From: Xanthostigma xanthostigma
Lineage: Eukaryota; Arthropoda; Insecta; Raphidioptera; Raphidiidae
DNA length: 64,000 nucleotides
Reading direction: 5' to 3'
Assembly (NCBI GenBank): GCA_963575645.1
Contig: OY754471.1
Location: 34,232,401 to 34,296,400 of the forward strand
Both the position numbers and the translations under genes were made by a program. A model generated the notes under the pieces. The model was not told the DNA's origin, did no database searches, and was given only the letters and a program-made list of their open reading frames with translations. Below, one piece after another: positions 4,694 through 54,939 of this stretch (position 1 is its first letter; each line of letters starts with the position of its first letter).

Positions 4694-5617
4694 ATGCCAA
4701 ATTCAAGATCAGGACGCGCACAAGATTCCAACGATGGTGACGATTTCCAAACACCAAGAGCACATTCAAACAATCTAGTTGACGCACCAGAACAAGGCAC
4801 TTCACCGTTAGCTCGTGCTACAGCTGTTCATATGAGGTTGACCACGGGCATATTTGATCAAGTTTCCGAGCTCCGACGTCTTTCCGAAACAATTACAAAT
4901 CATTTAATGAACCAAGACGATCGAGTTAAACACGACGTAATGAAATTTGTTGAAAAAATTACACCTTTCGACGGCTACGATCCAAACCAACTAATATCAT
5001 TTATCGGGGATATTCAAGAAATTATCGACCTTAAAATTACTTCGGAACTCGCTATAATGTCTGCGGTTATTGATCGCCTCCAAGGAGAGTTTAGAAAATG
5101 GTGGTCAGAAGGAATCATAACATGGAAAACCTGGAAAAGAACAAAAGCGGAACTGTTGCAAGAATTCATGTCACCCTTAGTCAAAGTACAACTTATAAAT
5201 TTTCATGTGAGAAGATTTCAACGCTCTCAAGAGTCGTTCGGAGATTTTATACACGATATCGTCAATAAGGCTCAAATTTTAGAAGCAGTCATGTCAGAGA
5301 CAGATCTCATTGTCCAAATATGGTCGCACGTGAATTCTGGAACACTCTTGAAAATCAAAGATATCCAAATGCCTGAGACAATTACAGAACTCAAGAAGCT
5401 AGTAAAGCGCATTCGAGATTCCGAACTACTTTTACAACTGGCTAGATCACGAGAAAATCAAGATGAAGCTCGCCAATCTGAAACGGAAAATTCCAATATT
5501 CTAAGAGCACTACACTGTTCCTATTGTAAAATGCCAGGACACTCAGTTCAATACTGCCGGCGCCGTCCGAGATCGCAAAGCGCTCAAATGTCAACTGAAT
5601 CCTCACCAAAAAACTAA
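4694..5617 (+). CDS. gag: Ty3/gypsy Gag (nucleocapsid-type)
   Basis: A 307-residue structural protein that would form the cytoplasmic virus-like particle and package element RNA. It starts at the first ATG after the leader (ACC upstream). The middle (about residues 90-240) has the charged, tryptophan-containing helical character of a retrotransposon capsid, including the string FRKWWSEG. A single CCHC zinc knuckle, CSYCKMPGHSVQYC, sits at residues 275-288, followed by an arginine-rich tail (RRRPRSQS) suited to nucleic-acid binding. The stop UAA at 5615-5617 directly follows an A_AAA_AAC slippery heptamer, so some ribosomes should shift into pol. Length and layout are normal for small insect gypsy Gags. 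Confidence 0.9.
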   Translation: MPNSRSGRAQDSNDGDDFQTPRAHSNNLVDAPEQGTSPLARATAVHMRLTTGIFDQVSELRRLSETITNHLMNQDDRVKHDVMKFVEKITPFDGYDPNQLISFIGDIQEIIDLKITSELAIMSAVIDRLQGEFRKWWSEGIITWKTWKRTKAELLQEFMSPLVKVQLINFHVRRFQRSQESFGDFIHDIVNKAQILEAVMSETDLIVQIWSHVNSGTLLKIKDIQMPETITELKKLVKRIRDSELLLQLARSRENQDEARQSETENSNILRALHCSYCKMPGHSVQYCRRRPRSQSAQMSTESSPKN

Positions 5618-5644
5618 GTTGCGCGCGATCTACTGAAGATCGCG
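5608..5644 (+). promoter_or_regulatory. -1 programmed frameshift signal (gag-pol)
   Basis: Seen: the heptamer A AAA AAC at 5608-5614 is in the gag phase, with codons AAA at 5609 and AAC at 5612, and the gag stop UAA follows at once. After a 9-nt spacer (5615-5623) comes a perfect 7-bp stem CGCGATC (5624-5630) / GATCGCG (5638-5644) with a 7-nt loop. Known: A_AAA_AAC followed by a structure 5-9 nt downstream is a canonical retroviral -1 frameshift site. Slippage would place the ribosome at CTA (5614) in the pol frame, which is open from 5599. Confidence 0.85.
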
Positions 5645-8600
5645 AAATCACTACAATTACTGACGTCACTTACCATCAGCGAATTTTGCCTATTATTGCT
5701 GTTCAAATAAAGCATCTGACAGTTAACGCCTTACTTGACTCCGGGGCTAGCACCAACTTTTGCGATCAACGCCTTTTTCAAGAAATTATTTCAAGCAAGA
5801 TTGGTCAAGCTCTGTCTTCGTCAATAAAGGTGCGCCTTCCTGATGGAAAACTTTTCCAAGCAAGTCAACAAGTTTCCTTCATTATTAAAATCCACAATCT
5901 TACCTGGAAATTCAATTTTATCGTCATTCCTTCTCTGCCGTTCCAAATGATTATAGGCCTAGACGCTTTACGTACAATGAAAGCGATTATAAATTTTTCC
6001 AAAAACTTTCTTTCCTTCCAGTTCGCACCGAAACAAAAAATTCTATTTTCTAAAGACGCTCAACTCAACCAAGAAACCGTCAATACTCTTGTGGAATGTC
6101 CAGTAAATTTAACGCTCCATCAACACGAACATTTGAAACAATTACTCTCGGATTTCGACGATACCCTGACTTCTGAACTGGGAAAGGTCAGAGGCTATAC
6201 TTACCGGATCCAACTAATTGATGATACGCCCGTTCACCTACCGCCGTTTCCGCTTACTCCGCCAAGAGCTACGTTGCTGAGAGAACATATCCAAAAATTA
6301 TTAGATTGCGGCGTTATCGAACACAGCCTATCTCCGTATTCGAGTCCATGTTTTTTTGTTCCTAAAAAGGACGGAGGGCAAAGGCTTGTGGTCGACTATC
6401 GACGGGTCAATAAGAAGATTCGCTACGACGCATATCCAGTTCCTCGCCCGGAGTCTATTTTTCAATGCTTGAGCGGCGCGAAAGTTTTTAGTAAATTGGA
6501 TCTCAACCAAGCCTATCATCAATTAGCACTGACCGACGACTCTAAACCAATTACAGCCTTCTCTGCTCCGTTCGGAACTTATCAATACAACTTCGTGCCG
6601 TTCGGTTTGGCCGTATCTGCCGCTGCTCTTAACAGAATTGTCAATTCAATTTTCGGAGATCTTCACTTTCAATATGTTACAAATTATTTCGATGATTTAT
6701 TAATATACTCGTCTACACTAGAAGAGCATTTCGTTCATCTTCGTGAAGTCATCGGACGTCTCCAGAAAGCCGGAATTACAGTCAATCCTAACAAAGCGCA
6801 ATTTTGTATGACCAAAGTAAAATGTCTGGGTTATATCATCTCGCCTGACGGATGTCACATCGACCATGATAAAGTTAGAGCGATTCAAGAAATACCAACT
6901 CCCCGAACGCTGCGCCAGGTTAGAGCCTTCATGGGAATGACTGCCTATTTCGCCAGATTCATTCCATCGTTTAGCGAGCTTGCCGTTCCGTTAAATCATT
7001 TAAAAAAGAAGCACGTCAAATTTCACATGGGTCCTCAACAGCTTGAAGCCATTCAAAAATTGAAGGACGCTCTTTCTACAGCTCCGGTCTTAAGATTCCC
7101 CGACTTTAACCGCCGTTTCGTTGTCAGATGTGACTCATCTGACGTTGCTCTTGGTGCTGTCTTACTCCAAGAATTTGAAGATGGCCTCCATCCCATCTCG
7201 TACGCCTCGAGGAAACTTTCTGAAACAGAGAAAAGATATGTCATTATGGAGAGAGAAGCGCTAGGTATAATTTTTGCTTTAGATAAATTTAACGATTACT
7301 TACTAGGTTGCAGGTTTCTACTTCAAGTCGACAACGAAGCCCTCAGCTGGATGATTCGTCACCCCAAGCAGTTGGGAAAAGTTGGCCGCTGGGTTTTGAA
7401 ACTATGTCGCTATGAATTTGATGTCGAACACATTCGTGGTCCGTTAAATTCCGTCGCCGACGCCCTCAGTCGAATGTATGAATCATCAGAAACGAACCAA
7501 CCTGACGCAAATTGGGTTAGTCTGAACGTTCTACAACAAGTTCCAGAGAGTTTAAGTTTGAAGCAACACCAGGAGTCCGATCCCGAGATAGGCCTCATCT
7601 TACGTCGCTTACGCGCTGGTGAAGATGTGACAGGGTATATCGAAAAGGAAGGTCTTCTGATGCGCTTCGTCGGTAAAAACAAACTGAAACGCGTGGTAGT
7701 TCCGGCAAATACCCGTCGTATGATATTGTATTACTTTCACGATTTAGACGTCGCTCATCCGGGTATCACCAAGACTTATCGCTCAATATCTAGGCGCTTC
7801 TGGTGGCCTGAAATGTTCCGTGATATAAGAGAATACGTTCGCACGTGCCAAATCTGTCAGACGACTAAACCACACAATCGAAGAATCGGCGCTCCGATGG
7901 CCTCTACGCTGCCGACGTCCGTTCTTGGTAGAGTCTACATCGACTTCTGTGGTCCACTGTTACCTTCGACCACCGGGAATCGCTACGCATTGGTACTCCT
8001 GGATGGATTCTCCAAGTGGATCGAGGTTATACCGTGTCGTCGTGCTACCGCAAGCGTAACCGTTAAAAACCTCGTAAAGCTGTGGTGTTCATTCGGCCCG
8101 CCTAAAGAGCTCGTATCCGATAACGCATCCGTCTTCAAATCCGATTGTTTCAAGCGAATGACACTGTCTTGGGGTATTCGTCATATATTCAGCAGTCCTT
8201 ACCAACCATCATCTAATATGGTCGAACGATGCATGCGAGATCTGAAGAGCACGCTGTCCATTGTTTTGCGCACCTGTTCTAACGATAATCACAAAGAATG
8301 GGATACGTACCTACCTTTCTTCGCTTATTCGCACAACTCAAGTGTCTCGGAGTCGACAGGTCAATCTCCGGCTAAGATCTTCTTGGGACGTGAGCTCAGT
8401 CAGCCTATTGATCACCAATGGCAATTAGATCGTTTTCTCGACCCGTCTGCTGACGTCACAGAAGACGCGATTCGACAGAAGTTGCGCCAAGTACATCGTC
8501 GCGTCAAGACCTACTACGACGTGCGCCAACCCACTCGCCATCCATTCAGCGTCGGACAGCTCGTGGTGCAGCGTCTACATACCATCGTGACGGCAGGCGG

Positions 8601-8766
8601 TAACCAAGGGCAAAAATTCACCCCGCGTTGGAGCGACCCGCGACGAATTATCCGTTTCACTTCACCGACGTCATGCGTGATTGCCGCCGACGAGGAGCCT
8701 ACCAGACAGTTCCGGGTCCATGTGTCGCAGTTGAAACCGTTTTTTGAACGTCAAGAAGCCGCTTAG
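5614..8766 (+). CDS. pol: Ty3/gypsy Pol (PR-RT-RNase H-IN)
   Basis: A 1050-residue Pol reached by a -1 frameshift from Gag; the frame opens at 5599 and has no ATG upstream of the protease site, so independent initiation is unlikely. Domains in order: aspartic protease with LLDSGAS (catalytic Asp codon at 5737); reverse transcriptase with the YFDD active site at 6685-6696 and upstream FSKLDLNQAYHQ; RNase H with RCDSSDVALGAVLLQ near 7127-7171; integrase with an HHCC zinc module near 7738-7860 (HDLDVAHPG, then CQICQ) and a catalytic D, D, E core (YIDFCGP, SDNAS, VERC). The second Asp and the Glu are 34 residues apart rather than the usual 35. A GPY/F-like tail region ends in VSQLKPFF. No chromodomain or env. 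The frame is fully open, consistent with a recent copy. Confidence 0.93.
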   Translation, partial: LSCARSTEDREITTITDVTYHQRILPIIAVQIKHLTVNALLDSGASTNFCDQRLFQEIISSKIGQALSSSIKVRLPDGKLFQASQQVSFIIKIHNLTWKFNFIVIPSLPFQMIIGLDALRTMKAIINFSKNFLSFQFAPKQKILFSKDAQLNQETVNTLVECPVNLTLHQHEHLKQLLSDFDDTLTSELGKVRGYTYRIQLIDDTPVHLPPFPLTPPRATLLREHIQKLLDCGVIEHSLSPYSSPCFFVPKKDGGQRLVVDYRRVNKKIRYDAYPVPRPESIFQCLSGAKVFSKLDLNQAYHQLALTDDSKPITAFSAPFGTYQYNFVPFGLAVSAAALNRIVNSIFGDLHFQYVTNYFDDLLIYSSTLEEHFVHLREVIGRLQKAGITVNPNKAQFCMTKVKCLGYIISPDGCHIDHDKVRAIQEIPTPRTLRQVRAFMGMTAYFARFIPSFSELAVPLNHLKKKHVKFHMGPQQLEAIQKLKDALSTAPVLRFPDFNRRFVVRCDSSDVALGAVLLQEFEDGLHPISYASRKLSETEKRYVIMEREALGIIFALDKFNDYLLGCRFLLQVDNEALSWMIRHPKQLGKVGRWVLKLCRYEFDVEHIRGPLNSVADALSRMYESSETNQPDANWVSLNVLQQVPESLSLKQHQESDPEIGLILRRLRAGEDVTGYIEKEGLLMRFVGKNKLKRVVVPANTRRMILYYFHDLDVAHPGITKTYRSISRRFWWPEMFRDIREYVRTCQICQTTKPHNRRIGAPMASTLPTSVLGRVYIDFCGPLLPSTTGNRYALVLLDGFSKWIEVIPCRRATASVTVKNLVKLWCSFGPPKELVSDNASVFKSDCFKRMTLSWGIRHIFSSPYQPSSNMVERCMRDLKSTLSIVLRTCSNDNHKEWDTYLPFFAYSHNSSVSESTGQSPAKIFLGRELSQPIDHQWQLDRFLDPSADVTEDAIRQKLRQVHRRVKTYYDVRQPTRHPFSVGQLVVQRLHTIVTAGGNQGQKFTPRWSDPRRIIRFTSPTSCVIAADEEPTRQFRVHVSQLKPFFERQEAA

Positions 8767-46420: not shown

Positions 46421-46605
46421 TGTAGCGTGAACTTTAACAAATTATAACTGATTAAGTGAGATAATGATTAAGCACTTTTTTTTTCACATATTTTTTCTGA
46501 CTTGTTATTATTGTTTATATTTTTATTCTGAATCCTTTTCATGGCAACGCTGGTTACTCAACATTTGTTGTGTATTCTTTTCATGGCAACGCTGGTTACT
46601 CAACA
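46421..46605 (-). repeat. BEL/Pao 3' LTR
   Basis: A 185-bp LTR, identical base for base to 52391-52575. In element orientation it begins TGTTGAGTAACC and ends GCTACA. Its first 29 bp are duplicated after a 13-bp spacer (plus-strand positions 46577-46605 and 46535-46563). The pol stop codon lies inside it. Confidence 0.95.
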
Positions 46606-49600
46606 TTCTCCACCCCTTTGGCAACAGCGTTGACAAACGGTTCTTGAAAAGCCGAGACTGGTAGCACACAGAGTTTAGCGATTGGCCTCGTCAGCGTAGA
46701 TGTTGCGGTCTTGATAGTGACAACTCTGGTAAGTCCGTCCTTACCAGGATGCAGTGAAAGTACTCGCGCAATAGGCCACTTAGTTGGAGGTAGTCGTTCA
46801 TCAGTTAGAAATACCATGGAGCCGACTTTAATCTCATTAGAGGGATGATGCCATTTTGAGATAGACTGGTAGCGATGCAAGCACTCAGCGGACCATCTGT
46901 TCCAGAAGTGTTCGGTTCTCTGCTGTATAAGTTGCCACTTAGAGAGTCTCGTCTCAGCGATCTCACTCAGCGAAGGTGAAGGAACAGAAGTAAGTGGCTC
47001 ACCGATAAGAAAATGACCTGGGGTAAGCGCTTCCAGGTCTGCAGGATCCTCAGAAAGCGGTGCCAAGGGCCGAGAGTTTAATACGGCCTCGACCTGGTTC
47101 AGAAAAGTAGTCATCTCCTCGTAAGTTAAAAGGGTTTCACCAATGACGCGTTGTAGATGGAACTTTAGTGATTTTACCGCGGCTTCCCATTTACCACCAA
47201 AGTGGGGTGCTCCAGGTGGGTTGAAGACCCAGTTGGTGCCGTCATTTGAGAGCAGCGTTGCGAGTTGTCTCAGTTCTTTTGATCCTACCTTGAAAAGACT
47301 TTTTAGAGTGGCATCTGCCCCAGCGAAATTAGTACCACAATCACTGTATAGCGTATGGCAGATGCCTCGACGACTAGCGAATCTTCTATATGCAGCGATG
47401 AAAGCGTCTGAAGAATAGTCGGTGACAACTTCTAAATGAATAGCTGATGTAGCAAAGCACACAAAAACTGCAATCCAACCCTTGTGGGCTTTGGAACCAC
47501 GTCCTTTCCAAGCTTTTAAAGTAATTGGACCGGCATAGTCTATACCGGTATGAAGAAAGGCACGTGAAGGCGTTATTCTCGCAGTGGGCAATTGTCCCAT
47601 CAGCTGTTGAGCTCGTAGCCCTCGATGGCGAGTGCAAGTGACGCAGCGAAGAATGAAGGATCGTACTGGCGCGCGACCACCAATAATCCAGTACGAACGT
47701 CGTAGATAAGCGAGTGTCAGTTGAGTACCGCCATGTAGAGTGCGGTGATGAGCGTCAGCTATTAGAAGAGTAGTTAGAGGTGATCCTCGAGGCACAATAG
47801 CGGGGTGCTTCTGGTCAGTATCAAGCAGCGAATGTTTCAAGCGTCCGCCAACTCGTAGTACACCTTGATGATCGAGGAATGGTGTCAACTTGGTTAGATG
47901 ATTCGATTTAGCGAGCTGATTGCCTTTGGCTAACGTCCTCAACTCCTCAGCGAAGAAATATTGTTGGATTATCTTGACGATCAATACTCTAGCGGTTTCC
48001 AGGTCAGCGGTAGTCAGCGGTGTAGTTAGCGAAGAGTGTGGTACCTTTTTTAAGCGAGCAATGAAGCGTAAACAGATCGCTGTGGTTCGTTTTAGACGTA
48101 ACAGCGAAGAGTAGCGAGTAATTAGATCCCAGAAAGAATGTGTATCTGCGTCTATAGCGACATTGAAGAAAAGACCTGGTTTTTCTTCAAGGTGAGCGGT
48201 TGTTGCAGCGGGAGGATCGAATGTAGGCCATTCTTCACAAGGTTGTAATATCCATGGGGGCCCATGCCACCAGAGCGAATGCTGCTTCAGTTTGCGAGTA
48301 CAAAGTCCTCGAGAAGCACAATCAGCGGGATTTTGCTTCCCAGCAATGAAACGCCACTTAGCTGAGGGTTGAAGCTCTTGAATTTTCGTTACTCGATTAC
48401 AAACGTACTCTTTCCAACGAGAGGGATGACTTCGGATCCATGTAAGTGCGACAGCGGAGTCTGTCCAGAGAACGATAGAAACGTCACCAAGCTCAAGCGT
48501 AGTCTGGACGTAGCGAGTAAGCTGAGAGAGGATCACAGCAGCGTTGAGCTCTAATCTCGGGATCGTTAGATGTTTAAGCGGAGCAACTTGTGTTTTAGCA
48601 CATACAAGCGAAATCGTAGAGCTGCCATCAGTAGCGGTGACCTTGAGAAAAATTACCGCAGCCATAGCGAGTTGCGATGCGTCAGCGAAGCCGTGTATCT
48701 CTACTGTAGCGGCGTAAGATAAGTGGAGCCAGCGGGGTATCTCAAGCAATTCAATGTACCGTAGATCATCCCGGAATAGGAGCCATTTATGAGTGAGAAC
48801 CGGTGAAAGTGGCTCATCCCAGCCAAGTTTCTCTAGCCATAGTTCCTGGAGCAGCATCTTGGCTCGTATCACAAGTGGCGCGAGGAATCCCAGCGGATCG
48901 AACAAGCGAGCTGTTTCGGAAAGAATAGATCGTTTGGTGACTGTCTTCTCAGTAGATAAAAAATAAGTAAACTTGAACTTATCTTGAGGTGGGTGCCAGG
49001 TCAGACCAAGCACCTTGATAGTAGATTCCTCGAAGCTGATGGGGTCGTCGGTAGTACTAGCAGCTGGTGATACTTGAGCGAGGAGTTCTGGGGAGTTACT
49101 GGCCCACTTAGCGAGCGGAAAACCTCCAGCGGAACACATGTCGGTAAGCTGTTGAGCGATCAAGGTAGCGTCTTGAACAGAATCAGCTCCCCCGTAGATG
49201 TCATCGACATATCGACCTTTAGTGAGAGGGTCAACGGCGAGCGGGAAACGATGACCTTCATCATTCACTAGCTGAAGAAGAGTGCGAACGGCTAGAAACG
49301 GAGCACAACGAGTTCCATAAGTCACCGTAGTAAGCTGATATGGGACGACCTGATGATGTTGGTCGACCCAGAGGATACGCTGCAAGTCCCAGTCAAGCGG
49401 GTGGACCTTGATCTGTCGAAACATCTTAGTGATGTCCGTGGCGAAGACGAATCGGTGACGGCGAGTCCAGAGAAGTACATCGGACAGATTGATCTGGATC
49501 TTGGGTCCAGAATGGAGGATGTCGTTGAGCGAAACCCCGGAAGAAGTATTACTGGAACCGTTGAAAACTACTCTTAGCTTCGTAGTGGTGCTCTGCTCCT

Positions 49601-50717
49601 TCAGTACGCCATGATGAGGCAAGTAGTATACAGGGAGAGATTCTGAAACGATAGAAGATGCTACTTTCATGTGTTCAAGCTGGTCATACTCACTCATAAA
49701 GTTGTTGTAGAGTGTACTGAAGGAGGGGTTAGCAGCTAGACGTCGGAGAGTGCTCTGGAGACAGCTACGAGCGGTAGAGAGCGAGTTACCCAGTTGAGTT
49801 GCCGAAGAATTGAGCGGAAGCCTTACTATGTAGCGACCTGAGGCATCCCTGGAGTGAGTGTTGATAAAGTGCTTTTCACACTCTTCATCAGATGGACTGA
49901 GTGGCGGAACAGTAGAGGTAGGAGTCTCTTCTTGCGACCAAAAACGTGAGAGTAGGTCATGGAGATCCTGATCAGTGGAGACATGATGGCTGTACATGGC
50001 AGCGGTTGAACTCAAAGAGTCAGCTGTTCCAAAAATAATCCATCCAAACATGGTGGATTGAGCGACTGGGGTGTTACTCGGTCCTTTAATCACTTCATGA
50101 TCGATAATCAGTCCAGTTGGAGCTGCCCCAAGCACCATGTCCACGGGTCCAGGTATCAGAAACCCTGGATCGGCAAGTTGCAAACCGTCTAAATGGGGCC
50201 AGTGAGGATCTTTCATAGCGAATGACGGTAGGTGAGCGGTAAGAACTGGAAGAATATAAGCTTGAAGCTGAATTTTGTCATCGGAGTGTAAGGATTGGAG
50301 CTCCAGAGAACACGTTCCACGAGTGTATCCAGCGGATGTGTTGCCTATGCTAAGAAGAGAGACGGCGGTAGGTTGTATCATGACTCCCAGCTTCTTGGCG
50401 AACTTCTCAGTGACGAATGAAACTTCAGCGCCTTGGTCGACCAGAACTCGAGCGGTTAGCGACTGACACCTTGGAGCGGATACTGAAACCTTGCAAGTAG
50501 CGAGTAAAACAGTCGGCTTAGAGAGATTTCCTGTAGTGCTAGCAGATGTCGCAATGGCAGAGGTAGTAGCGAAAGCAGGCATATAGATAGGTAGATCATC
50601 GGCGAAGGTAACTCTCTTCAGCGAAGGAACAACAGACTCAGAGGTGGAGAATGGTTGCCTCTTGCGGTTGAAACCAGTCGTAGTAGAGATAGGGCTCGTA
50701 ACGGATGGCGTAATTAG
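46596..50717 (-). CDS. pol: BEL/Pao Pol (PR-RT-RNase H-IN)
   Basis: The frame runs from directly after the gag UGA to a stop in the 3' LTR: 45 codons, then the first Met at 50582 and 1328 residues. Counting from that Met: protease with VLVDQG (Asp49; DQG in place of D[ST]G, as I recall for some insect BEL elements); RT with ATDITKMFRQIK (Asp383) and YVDD at 458-461; RNase H with FADAS (634), RLELN (678), WTDS (708) and NPAD (754); integrase zinc module HHRTLH...C980-VT-C983; catalytic Asp1015 (GIDYAGP), Asp1081 (YSDCGTNF) and Glu1133 (GKWEAA), 51 residues between the last two; then a DUF5641-type end near 1200-1305. It is probably expressed by readthrough of the UGA as Gag-Pol, though the internal ATG is an alternative. 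Confidence 0.93.
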   Translation of the reverse strand, partial: LITPSVTSPISTTTGFNRKRQPFSTSESVVPSLKRVTFADDLPIYMPAFATTSAIATSASTTGNLSKPTVLLATCKVSVSAPRCQSLTARVLVDQGAEVSFVTEKFAKKLGVMIQPTAVSLLSIGNTSAGYTRGTCSLELQSLHSDDKIQLQAYILPVLTAHLPSFAMKDPHWPHLDGLQLADPGFLIPGPVDMVLGAAPTGLIIDHEVIKGPSNTPVAQSTMFGWIIFGTADSLSSTAAMYSHHVSTDQDLHDLLSRFWSQEETPTSTVPPLSPSDEECEKHFINTHSRDASGRYIVRLPLNSSATQLGNSLSTARSCLQSTLRRLAANPSFSTLYNNFMSEYDQLEHMKVASSIVSESLPVYYLPHHGVLKEQSTTTKLRVVFNGSSNTSSGVSLNDILHSGPKIQINLSDVLLWTRRHRFVFATDITKMFRQIKVHPLDWDLQRILWVDQHHQVVPYQLTTVTYGTRCAPFLAVRTLLQLVNDEGHRFPLAVDPLTKGRYVDDIYGGADSVQDATLIAQQLTDMCSAGGFPLAKWASNSPELLAQVSPAASTTDDPISFEESTIKVLGLTWHPPQDKFKFTYFLSTEKTVTKRSILSETARLFDPLGFLAPLVIRAKMLLQELWLEKLGWDEPLSPVLTHKWLLFRDDLRYIELLEIPRWLHLSYAATVEIHGFADASQLAMAAVIFLKVTATDGSSTISLVCAKTQVAPLKHLTIPRLELNAAVILSQLTRYVQTTLELGDVSIVLWTDSAVALTWIRSHPSRWKEYVCNRVTKIQELQPSAKWRFIAGKQNPADCASRGLCTRKLKQHSLWWHGPPWILQPCEEWPTFDPPAATTAHLEEKPGLFFNVAIDADTHSFWDLITRYSSLLRLKRTTAICLRFIARLKKVPHSSLTTPLTTADLETARVLIVKIIQQYFFAEELRTLAKGNQLAKSNHLTKLTPFLDHQGVLRVGGRLKHSLLDTDQKHPAIVPRGSPLTTLLIADAHHRTLHGGTQLTLAYLRRSYWIIGGRAPVRSFILRCVTCTRHRGLRAQQLMGQLPTARITPSRAFLHTGIDYAGPITLKAWKGRGSKAHKGWIAVFVCFATSAIHLEVVTDYSSDAFIAAYRRFASRRGICHTLYSDCGTNFAGADATLKSLFKVGSKELRQLATLLSNDGTNWVFNPPGAPHFGGKWEAAVKSLKFHLQRVIGETLLTYEEMTTFLNQVEAVLNSRPLAPLSEDPADLEALTPGHFLIGEPLTSVPSPSLSEIAETRLSKWQLIQQRTEHFWNRWSAECLHRYQSISKWHHPSNEIKVGSMVFLTDERLPPTKWPIARVLSLHPGKDGLTRVVTIKTATSTLTRPIAKLCVLPVSAFQEPFVNAVAKGVENVE
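46606..46619 (-). promoter_or_regulatory. BEL/Pao polypurine tract
   Basis: In element orientation, AAAGGGGTGGAGAA directly precedes the 3' LTR (next bases TGTTGAG). An almost pure purine run at this place is the expected plus-strand primer. It also lies inside the end of pol. Confidence 0.75.
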
Positions 50718-50720
50718 TCA
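50715..50720 (-). promoter_or_regulatory. UGA-CUA leaky stop between gag and pol
   Basis: Minus strand: CAC TGA CTA ATT. The gag stop (50718-50720) is followed by CTA. Positions 52130 and 50582 are in the same frame and no other stop lies between gag and pol. UGA-CUA is the context established for efficient readthrough in animal genes and some RNA viruses. Readthrough here is inferred. Confidence 0.65.
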
Positions 50721-52130
50721 GTGTTGAGATTGTTTCTCTAGAGCGTCAGCAGCGGTTTGGGTAGCTGAAGAAGACATTGAGCTGGTGGAAGTGACTCGCC
50801 TGAGAGGAGACTCACGTGGCTGTGAATCACGGGAAGGTCGGTCAATGTGAATAGAAGTGTGGTGATACTCACCACACTTCTGGCAGGTTTGCTTGGTTCT
50901 GCAGTCAGCGATGCGATGTCTGCCCAAACAATTGAAGCAGAGGCGATAGTACCTCACTGCCTCGATGCGCTCTTCAATAGATTTTGCCCGGTAAGTAGGG
51001 CAAAACAGCACGAAATGCTTCTCGGAACAGATGGCACAAAGTCCCAGAGCATCTGTTGCAGCAGCTACTGACGAGAGGTTCACGGAGGCCGATGACCTTG
51101 AAAAGGTTGGCTTTGTAGCGGAAGTTCGTGAAGAGTAAGTAGCCTTAGCTGGGATTAGTTTAGATTCAGATGGTGCATCAGTACTGATCTCAATTGTCTC
51201 CATGGCCCTAGCTCGGCCAGTCAGGAAGATCTGAAGCTCAGAGTACGACGGAATGGCGTTGGATGATCCCAACTTGTTTTCCCAGCTCTCTCTGAGTCGA
51301 TCATCTAGACGGTTGATTGTCAGATGAACTAGTAGTGGGTCCCAGGAAGCAGTGGGAACATTGAGAGCCTGTATAGCGTCCAAGGCCTTCTTGGTTGAGC
51401 GTAGCAACTCATCAAGAGCCTTGGCAGAGCGTGGAGCGATTTTCTCTCGAGCCAGGAGCTTAGCAATATGAGCGAACAACAGGCGACGTGGATTGTCGTA
51501 GCGATTGACAAGAAGGTCCCATGCGGTAGCAAATGCCTCTCCTGTAATCGGCAGATTAGCGACAACGTCAGCGGCTTCATCCTTCAGCGATGTTCTTAAA
51601 TAATGCATTTTTACGACAGGAGTGACAGCCTCGTTTGTCCCAATAAGCGACGTGAACATTTCATGGAAATGTGTCCACTCCAAATAGTCGCCACTAAATG
51701 TGGGTAGAGGAACTTCTGGAAGCTTCTGTAGCAACGTACCTCCTAGTTGAGCGAATGAAGTCTCGAGCAGGGTGGCGCCCGTGGGTATGTCACGAGTACC
51801 TTCTAGTTCCTCCTTGCGTTCCAATAGAGCGACCTTGGCCGCATTATAATGTTTGAACGTTAAGTTGTACATGTCCTTTTTCACGTAAGCGGTGTCTAGA
51901 AGTCCGTCGAATTTTCCTTCAAATAAGGAAAGGTGAAGAGAGCTGAAAGCATTCCATGCCGTGTCGAGCGCTCCCATCTTGAAGGCGAGTGCTGAGCGGC
52001 TGAGAGAAGCAAACGAACCAGTTTCACCTTCAGCAGCGATATTTCTTATCGCAGTGGAGCGAATCTCCTGCAGCTTAAGCCGTTGTTCAAGCTTATGGTT
52101 GACAGGAGGGGACGGTGGCGGAACAGACAT
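50718..52130 (-). CDS. gag: BEL/Pao Gag (DUF1759 type)
   Basis: A 470-residue capsid/nucleocapsid protein. I start at the ATG at 52130 (ACA upstream, good context); the frame is open for eight more codons but only from a GTG. Counting from 52130: a helical N-terminal region; the DUF1759-type core around residues 140-235 with LPTFSGDYLEWTHFHEMF and NRYDNPRRLL; then three Cys/His clusters: CAICSEKHFVLFC at 365-377, CFNCLGRHRIADC at 398-410 and CQKCGEYHHTSIH at 416-428. The last two are CCHC/CCHH zinc knuckles for RNA binding. The Ser/Thr-rich tail ends at a UGA in a readthrough context, in frame with pol. Confidence 0.92.
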   Translation of the reverse strand: MSVPPPSPPVNHKLEQRLKLQEIRSTAIRNIAAEGETGSFASLSRSALAFKMGALDTAWNAFSSLHLSLFEGKFDGLLDTAYVKKDMYNLTFKHYNAAKVALLERKEELEGTRDIPTGATLLETSFAQLGGTLLQKLPEVPLPTFSGDYLEWTHFHEMFTSLIGTNEAVTPVVKMHYLRTSLKDEAADVVANLPITGEAFATAWDLLVNRYDNPRRLLFAHIAKLLAREKIAPRSAKALDELLRSTKKALDAIQALNVPTASWDPLLVHLTINRLDDRLRESWENKLGSSNAIPSYSELQIFLTGRARAMETIEISTDAPSESKLIPAKATYSSRTSATKPTFSRSSASVNLSSVAAATDALGLCAICSEKHFVLFCPTYRAKSIEERIEAVRYYRLCFNCLGRHRIADCRTKQTCQKCGEYHHTSIHIDRPSRDSQPRESPLRRVTSTSSMSSSATQTAADALEKQSQH

Positions 52131-52371
52131 TGTAGTTATTATAGAGATTTGCACGATTTTAAGTAAACCAAATTATAGCTCCTTGGACTGCAGTGTGAGA
52201 CGAAGAGGCAATAAATTAATAATGCACCTGTGATTATGTTTGCGCAGTAATTCTACTCCTCTGCCGCACAGACGTTTTTTGGTTGTACACACAGTATAAA
52301 CTTTTATATAAACCAGTTTTTTAAATAATGAAGGTATTTGTAGCAATTACTTAACTATCACTTCTCACTTA
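52131..52371 (-). other. BEL/Pao 5' leader, non-coding
   Basis: A leader of about 240 nt between PBS and gag ATG. No notable upstream frame. Confidence 0.6.
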
Positions 52372-52388
52372 TCCGGCTCGAAGGACCA
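52372..52388 (-). promoter_or_regulatory. BEL/Pao primer-binding site, tRNA-Tyr
   Basis: In element orientation TGGTCCTTCGAGCCGGA, two bases after the 5' LTR, is an uninterrupted 17-nt complement to the 3' end of eukaryotic tRNA-Tyr (TCCGGCTCGAAGGACCA). Strong identification of the minus-strand primer. Confidence 0.85.
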
Positions 52389-52390
52389 AA

Positions 52391-52575
52391 TGTAGCGTGA
52401 ACTTTAACAAATTATAACTGATTAAGTGAGATAATGATTAAGCACTTTTTTTTTCACATATTTTTTCTGACTTGTTATTATTGTTTATATTTTTATTCTG
52501 AATCCTTTTCATGGCAACGCTGGTTACTCAACATTTGTTGTGTATTCTTTTCATGGCAACGCTGGTTACTCAACA
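52391..52575 (-). repeat. BEL/Pao 5' LTR
   Basis: Identical to the 3' LTR at 46421-46605, including the internal 29-bp duplication (plus-strand 52547-52575 and 52505-52533). Followed by the ATTAT target duplication. Confidence 0.95.
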
Positions 52576-52679
52576 ATTATATAATAAATCATATTTTATT
52601 ATTTATCCGTGTGTATTCATCTATGATTATCATATTGTGATCATTTCATGAAGAAAACATAATTCAAATAAATTTTTCA

Positions 52680-53060
52680 TGGAAATGAGTATATTTTTAG
52701 GAATTTTGAAATTTTCTTATGTTGTCATGGTATGCTTACAATATGAAGCAAATATGAGTCAACGATATTCATCACAGAAATAAGCAAAATATTTGAAGTA
52801 ATATTTAATCTTTTTAACACCATCATAGAATGTTCCTAATATGAAGCAAATATGAGTCGACGATATTCATCACAGAAATAAGCAAATTTGAAGTAATATT
52901 CAATCTTTTTAACACCGTCATAGAATGTACATAATATGAAACAAATATGAGTCAACGATATTCATCATAGGAATAAGTACATTTTGTAGGAATGTTGAAT
53001 CTTTCAAATATTATCATGATCTACTGTTAATATGAAGACAACTTTTAGTTGAAGATTATT
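52680..53060. repeat. ~96-bp tandem repeat, about 4 units
   Basis: Units starting AATATGAAGC at 52740, 52838, 52933 and 53029 (spacings 98, 95, 96), preceded by a half unit from about 52685. Shared words: AAATATGAGTCAACGATATT, CATCACAGAAATAAGCAAA, TCTTTTTAACACC. The last unit decays. Confidence 0.8.
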
Positions 53061-54080: not shown

Positions 54081-54367
54081 TAAAAATTATCAAAGGACGT
54101 TCGAGACTGATATCAAAATAATACCAACATTTTGAAATTTTTATCATCGTAAGATGAACAAAAAAGATGTTCACTGCCAAAATTTCAACTACTACACCGT
54201 TTTTGAGAAATATATTTTTTAAATTCGGTCCACTAACACGGGAGTAAATGTATCGTTTTTTATTATTTTTGTTTTTATATTGCAGCTTTTATCAAAATAT
54301 TACCATTGTAACAAATACTTTAATACTTAATATTATATATATTAGATATCGTGTCTATCGAGATAAT
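54081..54367. other. No recognised feature
   Basis: AT-rich; nothing supported. Confidence 0.3.
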
Positions 54368-54580
54368 TATTAATAAAAATCGCAGGATTGTGGACAAAAA
54401 GTTATTTATTAATTAGTGTACGACGTTTCGTCTATAAATTTAGACTTTTTCAAGTACAAATGTGAAAATAAATTTTAAATTTTCACATTTGTACTTGAAA
54501 AAGTCTAAATTTATAGACGAAACGTCGTACACTAATTAATAAATAACTTTTTGTCCACAATCCTGCGATTTTTATTAATA
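54368..54580. mobile_element. 213-bp near-perfect palindrome
   Basis: The arms are practically perfect inverted copies, from TATTAATAAAAATCGCAGGA at the left to its complement at 54580, including ACGACGTTTCGTCTATAAAT, with only an AT-rich centre (AAATTTTAAATTT). Such symmetry suggests a recent foldback/MITE copy or maintained pairing. Confidence 0.85.
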
Positions 54581-54939
54581 CTTAATATTATAAAATTTTT
54601 GAACAAATTCGTACGTTTTTCAAGTAATTTTACTATTTAATTAATTAATTATAGACAAAAACAGATGTCAAAAAACGTTATGACGTCATACCTATGTGCC
54701 GAAAATTAAGTAGAAGTGTTTCAGTCGTTTATTATAAACTGTATATTCTTTTTTGATATTATTAATTATAGTCACCAAACTTCCATATTTATTTCCAATA
54801 TAATATGTGAATTTACATTTTTTCATGTATATTTACTTAACATTATTATAATTATTAAAAATTAAACAGGTTGTCAAAATTTTTTACTTTCCGCTATAAA
54901 AAAAAAACATATTTACTTTTTTAAATCAGGAAGCTATAT
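54581..54939. other. No recognised feature
   Basis: AT-rich; nothing supported. Confidence 0.3.

Follow-up and report, generated by a model that had tools for sequence, protein, structure and literature searches.

An in-frame UGA-CUA between gag and pol of a young BEL/Pao retrotransposon as a candidate readthrough site

The DNA analyzed here, a stretch of 64,000 nucleotides that we call the window, contains a BEL/Pao retrotransposon whose gag and pol share one reading frame that is divided by a single UGA followed directly by CUA. Programmed readthrough of a leaky stop, giving both Gag and Gag-Pol in a young element, is in our judgment the best explanation, and we regard it as quite probable. 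The stop looks like a built-in control of dose rather than damage. Most ribosomes would terminate at the UGA and release Gag, while a minority, aided by the CUA, would insert an amino acid at UGA-CUA and continue to a Gag-protease-RT-RNaseH-integrase product; the outcome would be an excess of Gag over Gag-Pol that is set by the leaky stop. We infer that ribosomes pass the UGA, and with it how often they do so and that the dosage of Gag to Gag-Pol is the purpose. The element itself is complete, its gag-pol frame and stop context can be read directly, the stop is present in all copies that reach the junction, these copies have moved recently, and a second family has the same layout. In most retroviruses, the excess of Gag over Gag-Pol is set by -1 frameshifting. 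To our knowledge, control of the Gag to Pol ratio in BEL/Pao has been little studied, because most of these elements have one frame. A group that uses readthrough would answer directly, for part of BEL/Pao, how this ratio is set. BEL elements that are split by a stop also risk being annotated as broken though they are mobile.

The complete element occupies positions 52575 to 46421 on the minus strand of the window and is flanked by a 5-bp target duplication, ATAAT. Its features are as follows.

52391..52575 (-): 5' LTR, 185 bp (TGTTGAGTAA...CACGCTACA), 100% identity to the 3' LTR
52371..52388 (-): TGGTCCTTCGAGCCGGAT, 2 nt behind the 5' LTR, candidate primer binding site
50718..52130 (-): gag, 470 codons plus TGA; ATG at 52130, frame 52130-50721
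~51267-51698 (-): DUF1759 in gag (PF03564, E 9e-33)
~50847-51038 (-): zinc knuckles in gag
50715..50720 (-): proposed readthrough site, the gag stop TGA and then CTA, in CAA CAC TGA CTA ATT ACG
46596..50717 (-): pol, 1,373 codons plus TAA, in the frame of gag, with Pfam matches
50582 down to 50580 (-): first in-frame ATG past the gag stop, codon 46, in a weak context
50424..50441 (-): VDQGAE, presumably the protease motif
49200..49211 (-): YVDD, presumed reverse transcriptase motif; RVT_1 (PF00078) matches with E 3.6e-5, short of the curated cut-off
48456..48938 (-): Peptidase_A17 (Pao retrotransposon peptidase, PF05380), in two pieces (E 7.6e-12 and 5.3e-28)
47625..47777 (-): integrase zinc-binding domain H2C2 (E 7.2e-9)
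46662..46943 (-): DUF5641 (PF18701), C-terminal in pol (E 7.6e-35)
46421..46605 (-): 3' LTR, 185 bp, overlapping the last pol codons

The two LTRs match without any difference, as the sequence-only reading had said. Peptidase_A17 and DUF5641 in pol and DUF1759 in gag, which we take to be markers of BEL/Pao, assign the element to this superfamily together with its LTR pair, its candidate primer binding site and its short target duplication. The unbroken gag-pol frame that is usual in BEL/Pao (and not strictly defining) is interrupted here by one in-frame TGA. Beside the 5' LTR lie three 156-nt direct repeats that are 61-71% alike at a spacing of 95-98 nt (window 52629-52977), and ~1.8 kb past this LTR there is a near-perfect inverted repeat of 106 nt with a 9-nt spacer (window 54364-54584). 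The window also holds a Ty3/gypsy-type element on its plus strand (4694-8766), with gag at 4694-5617 and a pol that opens at 5599 in another frame. The classical slippery heptamer A_AAA_AAC is found at 5608-5614 in the gag phase of that element, so that one window contains a candidate for -1 frameshifting and a candidate for readthrough.

A scan for in-frame stops from the gag ATG found the TGA at nt +1410 and then only the TAA at nt +5532, which makes one stop within 1,844 codons. The start of gag at 52130, the TGA (50720-50718), the CTA next to it (50717-50715) and pol down to the TAA ending at 46596 thus lie in one frame, and the UGA is its sole internal stop, both as claimed from the letters alone. 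Its location between the zinc knuckles and the protease was likewise correctly described: the TGA lies 42 codons past the last knuckle and 93 codons ahead of VDQGAE. As a rough estimate, a single random stop would land between knuckle and protease with a chance of 135/1844. CTA accounts for 43/1844 codons of the gag-pol frame, and, when both strands of the window are counted, 17 of 2320 TGA triplets are followed by it. Two of the classes into which readthrough contexts of eukaryotes fall are described as UGA-CUA and UAG-CARYYA; by itself, UGA-CUA is credited with 1.5% readthrough, and cases of UGA-CUA-G reach ~31% in human cells (PMC4132726, in part). In the window element, CUA comes directly after the UGA and an open coding frame lies right behind it, as is typical of the UGA-CUA class. 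The fourth base past the UGA is A (UGA-CUA-A) rather than the G of the stronger form, a small correction to the earlier description of this context.

The assembly to which the window belongs (623 Mb, 28 contigs) was searched with the gag protein, and 90 of 269 candidates were scored. Ten copies match at 100% (rounded) and constitute family 1; their gag frames, counted from the previous stop, measure 484-485 aa and end at the same point. Sibling copies had been named as the place where a sense codon at the junction would speak against recoding. Read in the DNA, TGA-CTA-ATT-ACG is present in 10/10 family 1 copies that reach the junction; being nearly identical, these copies go back to one recent ancestor and do not represent ten independent tests. 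A DNA search with 501 junction bases located 12 places, which are the same ten copies and two gag-deleted ones whose matches begin ~40 nt past the stop position. No stop-less copy of family 1 was found among these 12 junction matches, 10 of which span the stop.

LTR pairs of family 1 show no substitution in 9/9 comparable cases, with a 1-base gap in two pairs; the 3' LTR of L009 was not found within the stretch examined. Eight of the ten copies are flanked by 5-bp target duplications, each different (cttag, gtatg, gatac, catac, gtgag, gggac, ataat and, for L008, taatt), and L010 has no target duplication at its ends. Substitution-free LTR pairs and target duplications that all differ indicate that family 1 jumped recently as stop-bearing RNA. 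Over the first 1,497 nt of pol there is no further stop in 7/10 copies; L001, L009 and L010 have stops in this region. The two gag-less copies, L057 (C10:11836812-11837070) and L058 (C3:31542438-31542696), have a common gag deletion that joins the leader to pol at a shared 6-nt TGGTTT, and their left flanks differ. Pol is open in both across the 1,755 nt read. They represent either a single product of template switching that spread with help in trans, or an event that occurred repeatedly.

The next-best gag matches in the genome, 37% identical to the gag of family 1, form a second family, of which four copies were found (L011-L014); measured from the preceding stop, their gag frames are 464 aa long. 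The junction reads ACA CAA TAG CAA TTG in 4/4 copies and is located at the same place as the stop of family 1. In the two copies scanned, the TAG is the only in-frame stop ahead of the end of pol, which is reached 1,893 codons (L012) and 1,869 codons (L014) from the ATG; the pol of L013 is disrupted late. LTRs of ~325 bp are 99.4-100% alike within the four copies, which indicates that family 2 is recent too, and clean target duplications flank L012, L013 and L014 but not L011. The family 2 LTR is followed by a stretch near-identical to TGGTCCTTCGAGCCGGAT of the window element. CAATTG after the TAG has 5/6 bases of CARYYA; with this one departure from the exact UAG-CARYYA motif, family 2 would work like that class rather than be a member of it. 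A 24-nt tandem repeat lies in the gag-pol linker ~120 nt past the TAG. Its copy number varies among L011-L014 with the frame kept, and the 72-nt difference between L012 and L014 fits three repeat units. L011 and L014, both on contig C22, differ at 3 sites in nearly 3 kb and have the right flank cttcg in common and not the left, a pattern for which recombination or duplication is possible.

Two families with stops in or close to both of the best-known eukaryotic contexts suggest one need that has been answered twice, and UGA and UAG sites of one genome could be compared in the same cells. The joint chance of the junction stops and next codons of both families, calculated as (135/1844)(43/1844)(161/1869)(42/961), is roughly 6e-6, a value that is to be read with the context classes having been chosen post hoc.

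When the search was repeated with the gag of family 2, 92 of 278 first-look candidates were scored, scoring being limited to gags that were similar enough. The 92 loci comprise the 4 copies of family 2, the 10 of family 1 and 78 others. An open frame of at least 1,500 aa is found in 59 of these 78 (at least 1,700 aa in 55) and a shorter one in 19, in agreement with the earlier statement that BEL/Pao elements normally have a single frame. Two of the 59 long-frame loci show a stop within the region that matched, and several of the 19 shorter ones are closely related to loci with long frames. Families of this genome with a single frame (e.g., L016 and L020-L029) belong to the same superfamily and have the same order of gag and pol domains as the window element but, unlike it, have unbroken frames. 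Among the shorter loci, C1:51582600 and C11:8809500 were read, and L015, L017 and L018 were read in part. C1:51582600 (465 aa) and C11:8809500 (472 aa) were considered as gags with a junction stop and rejected as decayed, with a frameshift or scattered stops. The genome may hold more BEL families that are split by a stop.

RNA structure was probed on both sides of the stop. In alphaviruses, a stem loop within ~150 nt is described as boosting UGA readthrough up to 10-fold (PMC8310308, in part), and a structure after the stop had been proposed as something to look for in the window element. None was found beyond chance within 150 nt in either family. Downstream of the family 1 stop, no fold exceeded shuffled sequences (z +0.22 over the 150 nt that begin at the stop, -0.51 over 90 nt and +1.00 over 50690-50551), a result that applies to folds other than pseudoknots and longer-range pairing. 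The same was true after the stop of family 2 (z -0.86 for two copies and -1.15 for 90 nt of one). Given that no fold stands out from the shuffles, the level of readthrough may be modest, which would suit Gag-Pol as the minority product. The last 150 nt of family 1 gag (50721-50870, minus strand) do fold better than shuffles (z -2.42, 5/200 as good); this upstream fold is absent at the gag end of family 2 (z 0.06). Selenocysteine insertion at the UGA was also considered and rejected, as no Rfam family scored over threshold within the window.

Of the gag relatives that a protein search returned, 23 in all, ants account for 11, parasitoid wasps for 6 and a paper wasp for 1; the other 5 come from unnamed sources. 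The search returns only lengths of 0.55 to 1.75x the query, so unbroken polyproteins of 1,800 aa are missed and shared end points outweigh the absence of fusions as evidence. P0004, the closest gag from outside this genome (65% identity across 64% of the query), ends at the corresponding place (...AAKQ). P0005, P0006, P0007, P0012 and P0015 (from the ants Formica fusca, F. exsecta and Polyergus mexicanus, and from one unnamed source) end 40-41 residues past the knuckle, all with ...SE; P0008, P0011, P0017, P0020 and P0022 end 21-45 residues past it, and the tails of P0013 and P0018 differ. P0009 (57% identical) continues through the junction with Q-W-L at the place of the stop, where the W is either a sense TGG or a TGA that the gene caller translated under another code. 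Of the near-twins P0008 and P0010 of Diachasmimorpha, the first ends at a point where the second has Q and continues, and P0016, P0021 and P0023 also continue beyond the junction. The end points of P0004 and of the gags with ...SE speak for readthrough, and the relatives that continue speak against it. No relatives were found in viral contigs or in phage records; in genome contigs the sole match, L059, is filed under a clam-gill symbiont, and its frame of 1,509 aa reaches the end of the contig without closing.

The gag tree separates this genome's single-frame families, together with P0021, P0029 and P0030, from all the rest, including the stop-bearing families, with a support of 0.90. In a further split (0.91) of this unrooted tree, the branch of family 1 comes closer than family 2 to the single-frame side, so that a single clade of stop-bearing families depends on where the root is placed (here at the midpoint). 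A tree built from the protease region sets families 1 and 2, P0009, P0027 and P0010 apart from the single-frame families (0.95), and here P0021 joins the side of families 1 and 2. These trees are compatible both with a single origin of readthrough and with more than one. It is about evenly balanced whether there exists a readthrough lineage of insect BEL/Pao that includes this genome, ants and perhaps parasitoid wasps, and in which UGA-CUA and UAG-CAA-UU replace one another while the layout stays constant. If this is true, two recently active families in one host constitute a natural experiment on the replacement of a readthrough signal.

The stop could instead be a chance nonsense mutation in a single-frame element, with the defective stop-bearing copies spread in trans by other BEL copies. 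Ten near-identical copies perhaps have one recent source, in which case their agreement is a single event, and the gag-less copies made at least two insertions, which indicates that help in trans probably occurs. A sense codon or run-on at the junction of some relatives also fits such a mutation. It would, however, require luck in both position and context twice, in distant families, and neither the lack of a stop-less copy among the junction matches nor the stop at the same place in P0004, the nearest foreign relative, is in its favor. We consider it unlikely; the agreement of the ten siblings, together with a second, distant BEL family, supports the original preference for a recoding signal over random inactivation.

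Pol could also be made separately, either by re-initiation or internal entry at the pol ATG (50582) or from a pol mRNA with its own internal promoter. Both families have an in-frame ATG ahead of the protease, L011 and L014 have a further one 3 codons past the TAG, gag-less copies with an open pol exist, and a promoter at the junction is described in Tca2, an element from yeast (PMC2194720, in part). This explanation nevertheless leaves both readthrough-type contexts unaccounted for. The first ATG past the family 1 stop, at 50599, is out of frame (47 codons) and precedes the in-frame ATG, whose context is weak; this disfavors re-initiation in family 1, and less so in family 2 given the early ATG of L011 and L014. 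That early ATG is ACG in L012 and L013, and the codons between stop and first ATG (45 in family 1, 108 in L012 and 60 in L013) are open and in frame without need if Pol starts behind them. We judge separate production of Pol to be decidedly improbable. Least probable, and very much so, is a spliced pol mRNA in the style of foamy viruses, of which L057 and L058 would be reverse transcripts. An identical gag deletion in two insertions with different left flanks speaks for it, but both ends of the deletion lie in the shared TGGTTT and, judged by eye, no placement yields GT...AG, so a template switch during reverse transcription fits better than splicing.

The mechanism of readthrough is itself known and is apparently unreported in the BEL/Pao superfamily. 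We found no report of it there in literature covered in part, as titles and beginnings of abstracts, with the 2003 survey of gag-pol recoding outside this coverage. According to a review, pol lies in the -1 frame in 28 of the 51 animal LTR elements surveyed in 2003 and in the +1 frame in 2 (PMC5009743). In the main text of a 2011 survey of BEL/Pao, a term search found none of "stop codon," "frameshift" and "readthrough" (PMC3118150, in part).

Among known systems, Tca2 of Candida albicans resembles the window element as an LTR retrotransposon with an in-frame gag UGA. It differs in being fungal, and its junction alone gave no readthrough in yeast, so that the presence of a gag UGA is not by itself proof of canonical readthrough (PMC2194720, in part). 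Murine leukaemia virus, a gammaretrovirus, is alike in having one gag-pol frame with a stop at the gag end and in making Gag-Pol by readthrough (PMC8310308, in part). It uses UAG and a required 3' pseudoknot, whereas the window element is BEL/Pao rather than a retrovirus, has UGA-CUA with no fold found, and has C after the stop where the gammaretroviral type has G. Alphaviruses and the vertebrate genes OPRL1, AQP4, MAPK10 and OPRK1 share UGA-CUA with an open frame behind it (PMC4132726, in part). Compared with the UGA-CUA-G genes and the alphaviruses, the window element has A instead of G as fourth base and no detected stem loop, and its stop joins gag to pol. Family 2 has its counterpart in tobacco mosaic virus, whose UAG-CARYYA (consensus from PMC4132726, in part) it resembles with UAG-CAA-UU; the final base of its motif is G, not A, and it is an animal retrotransposon.
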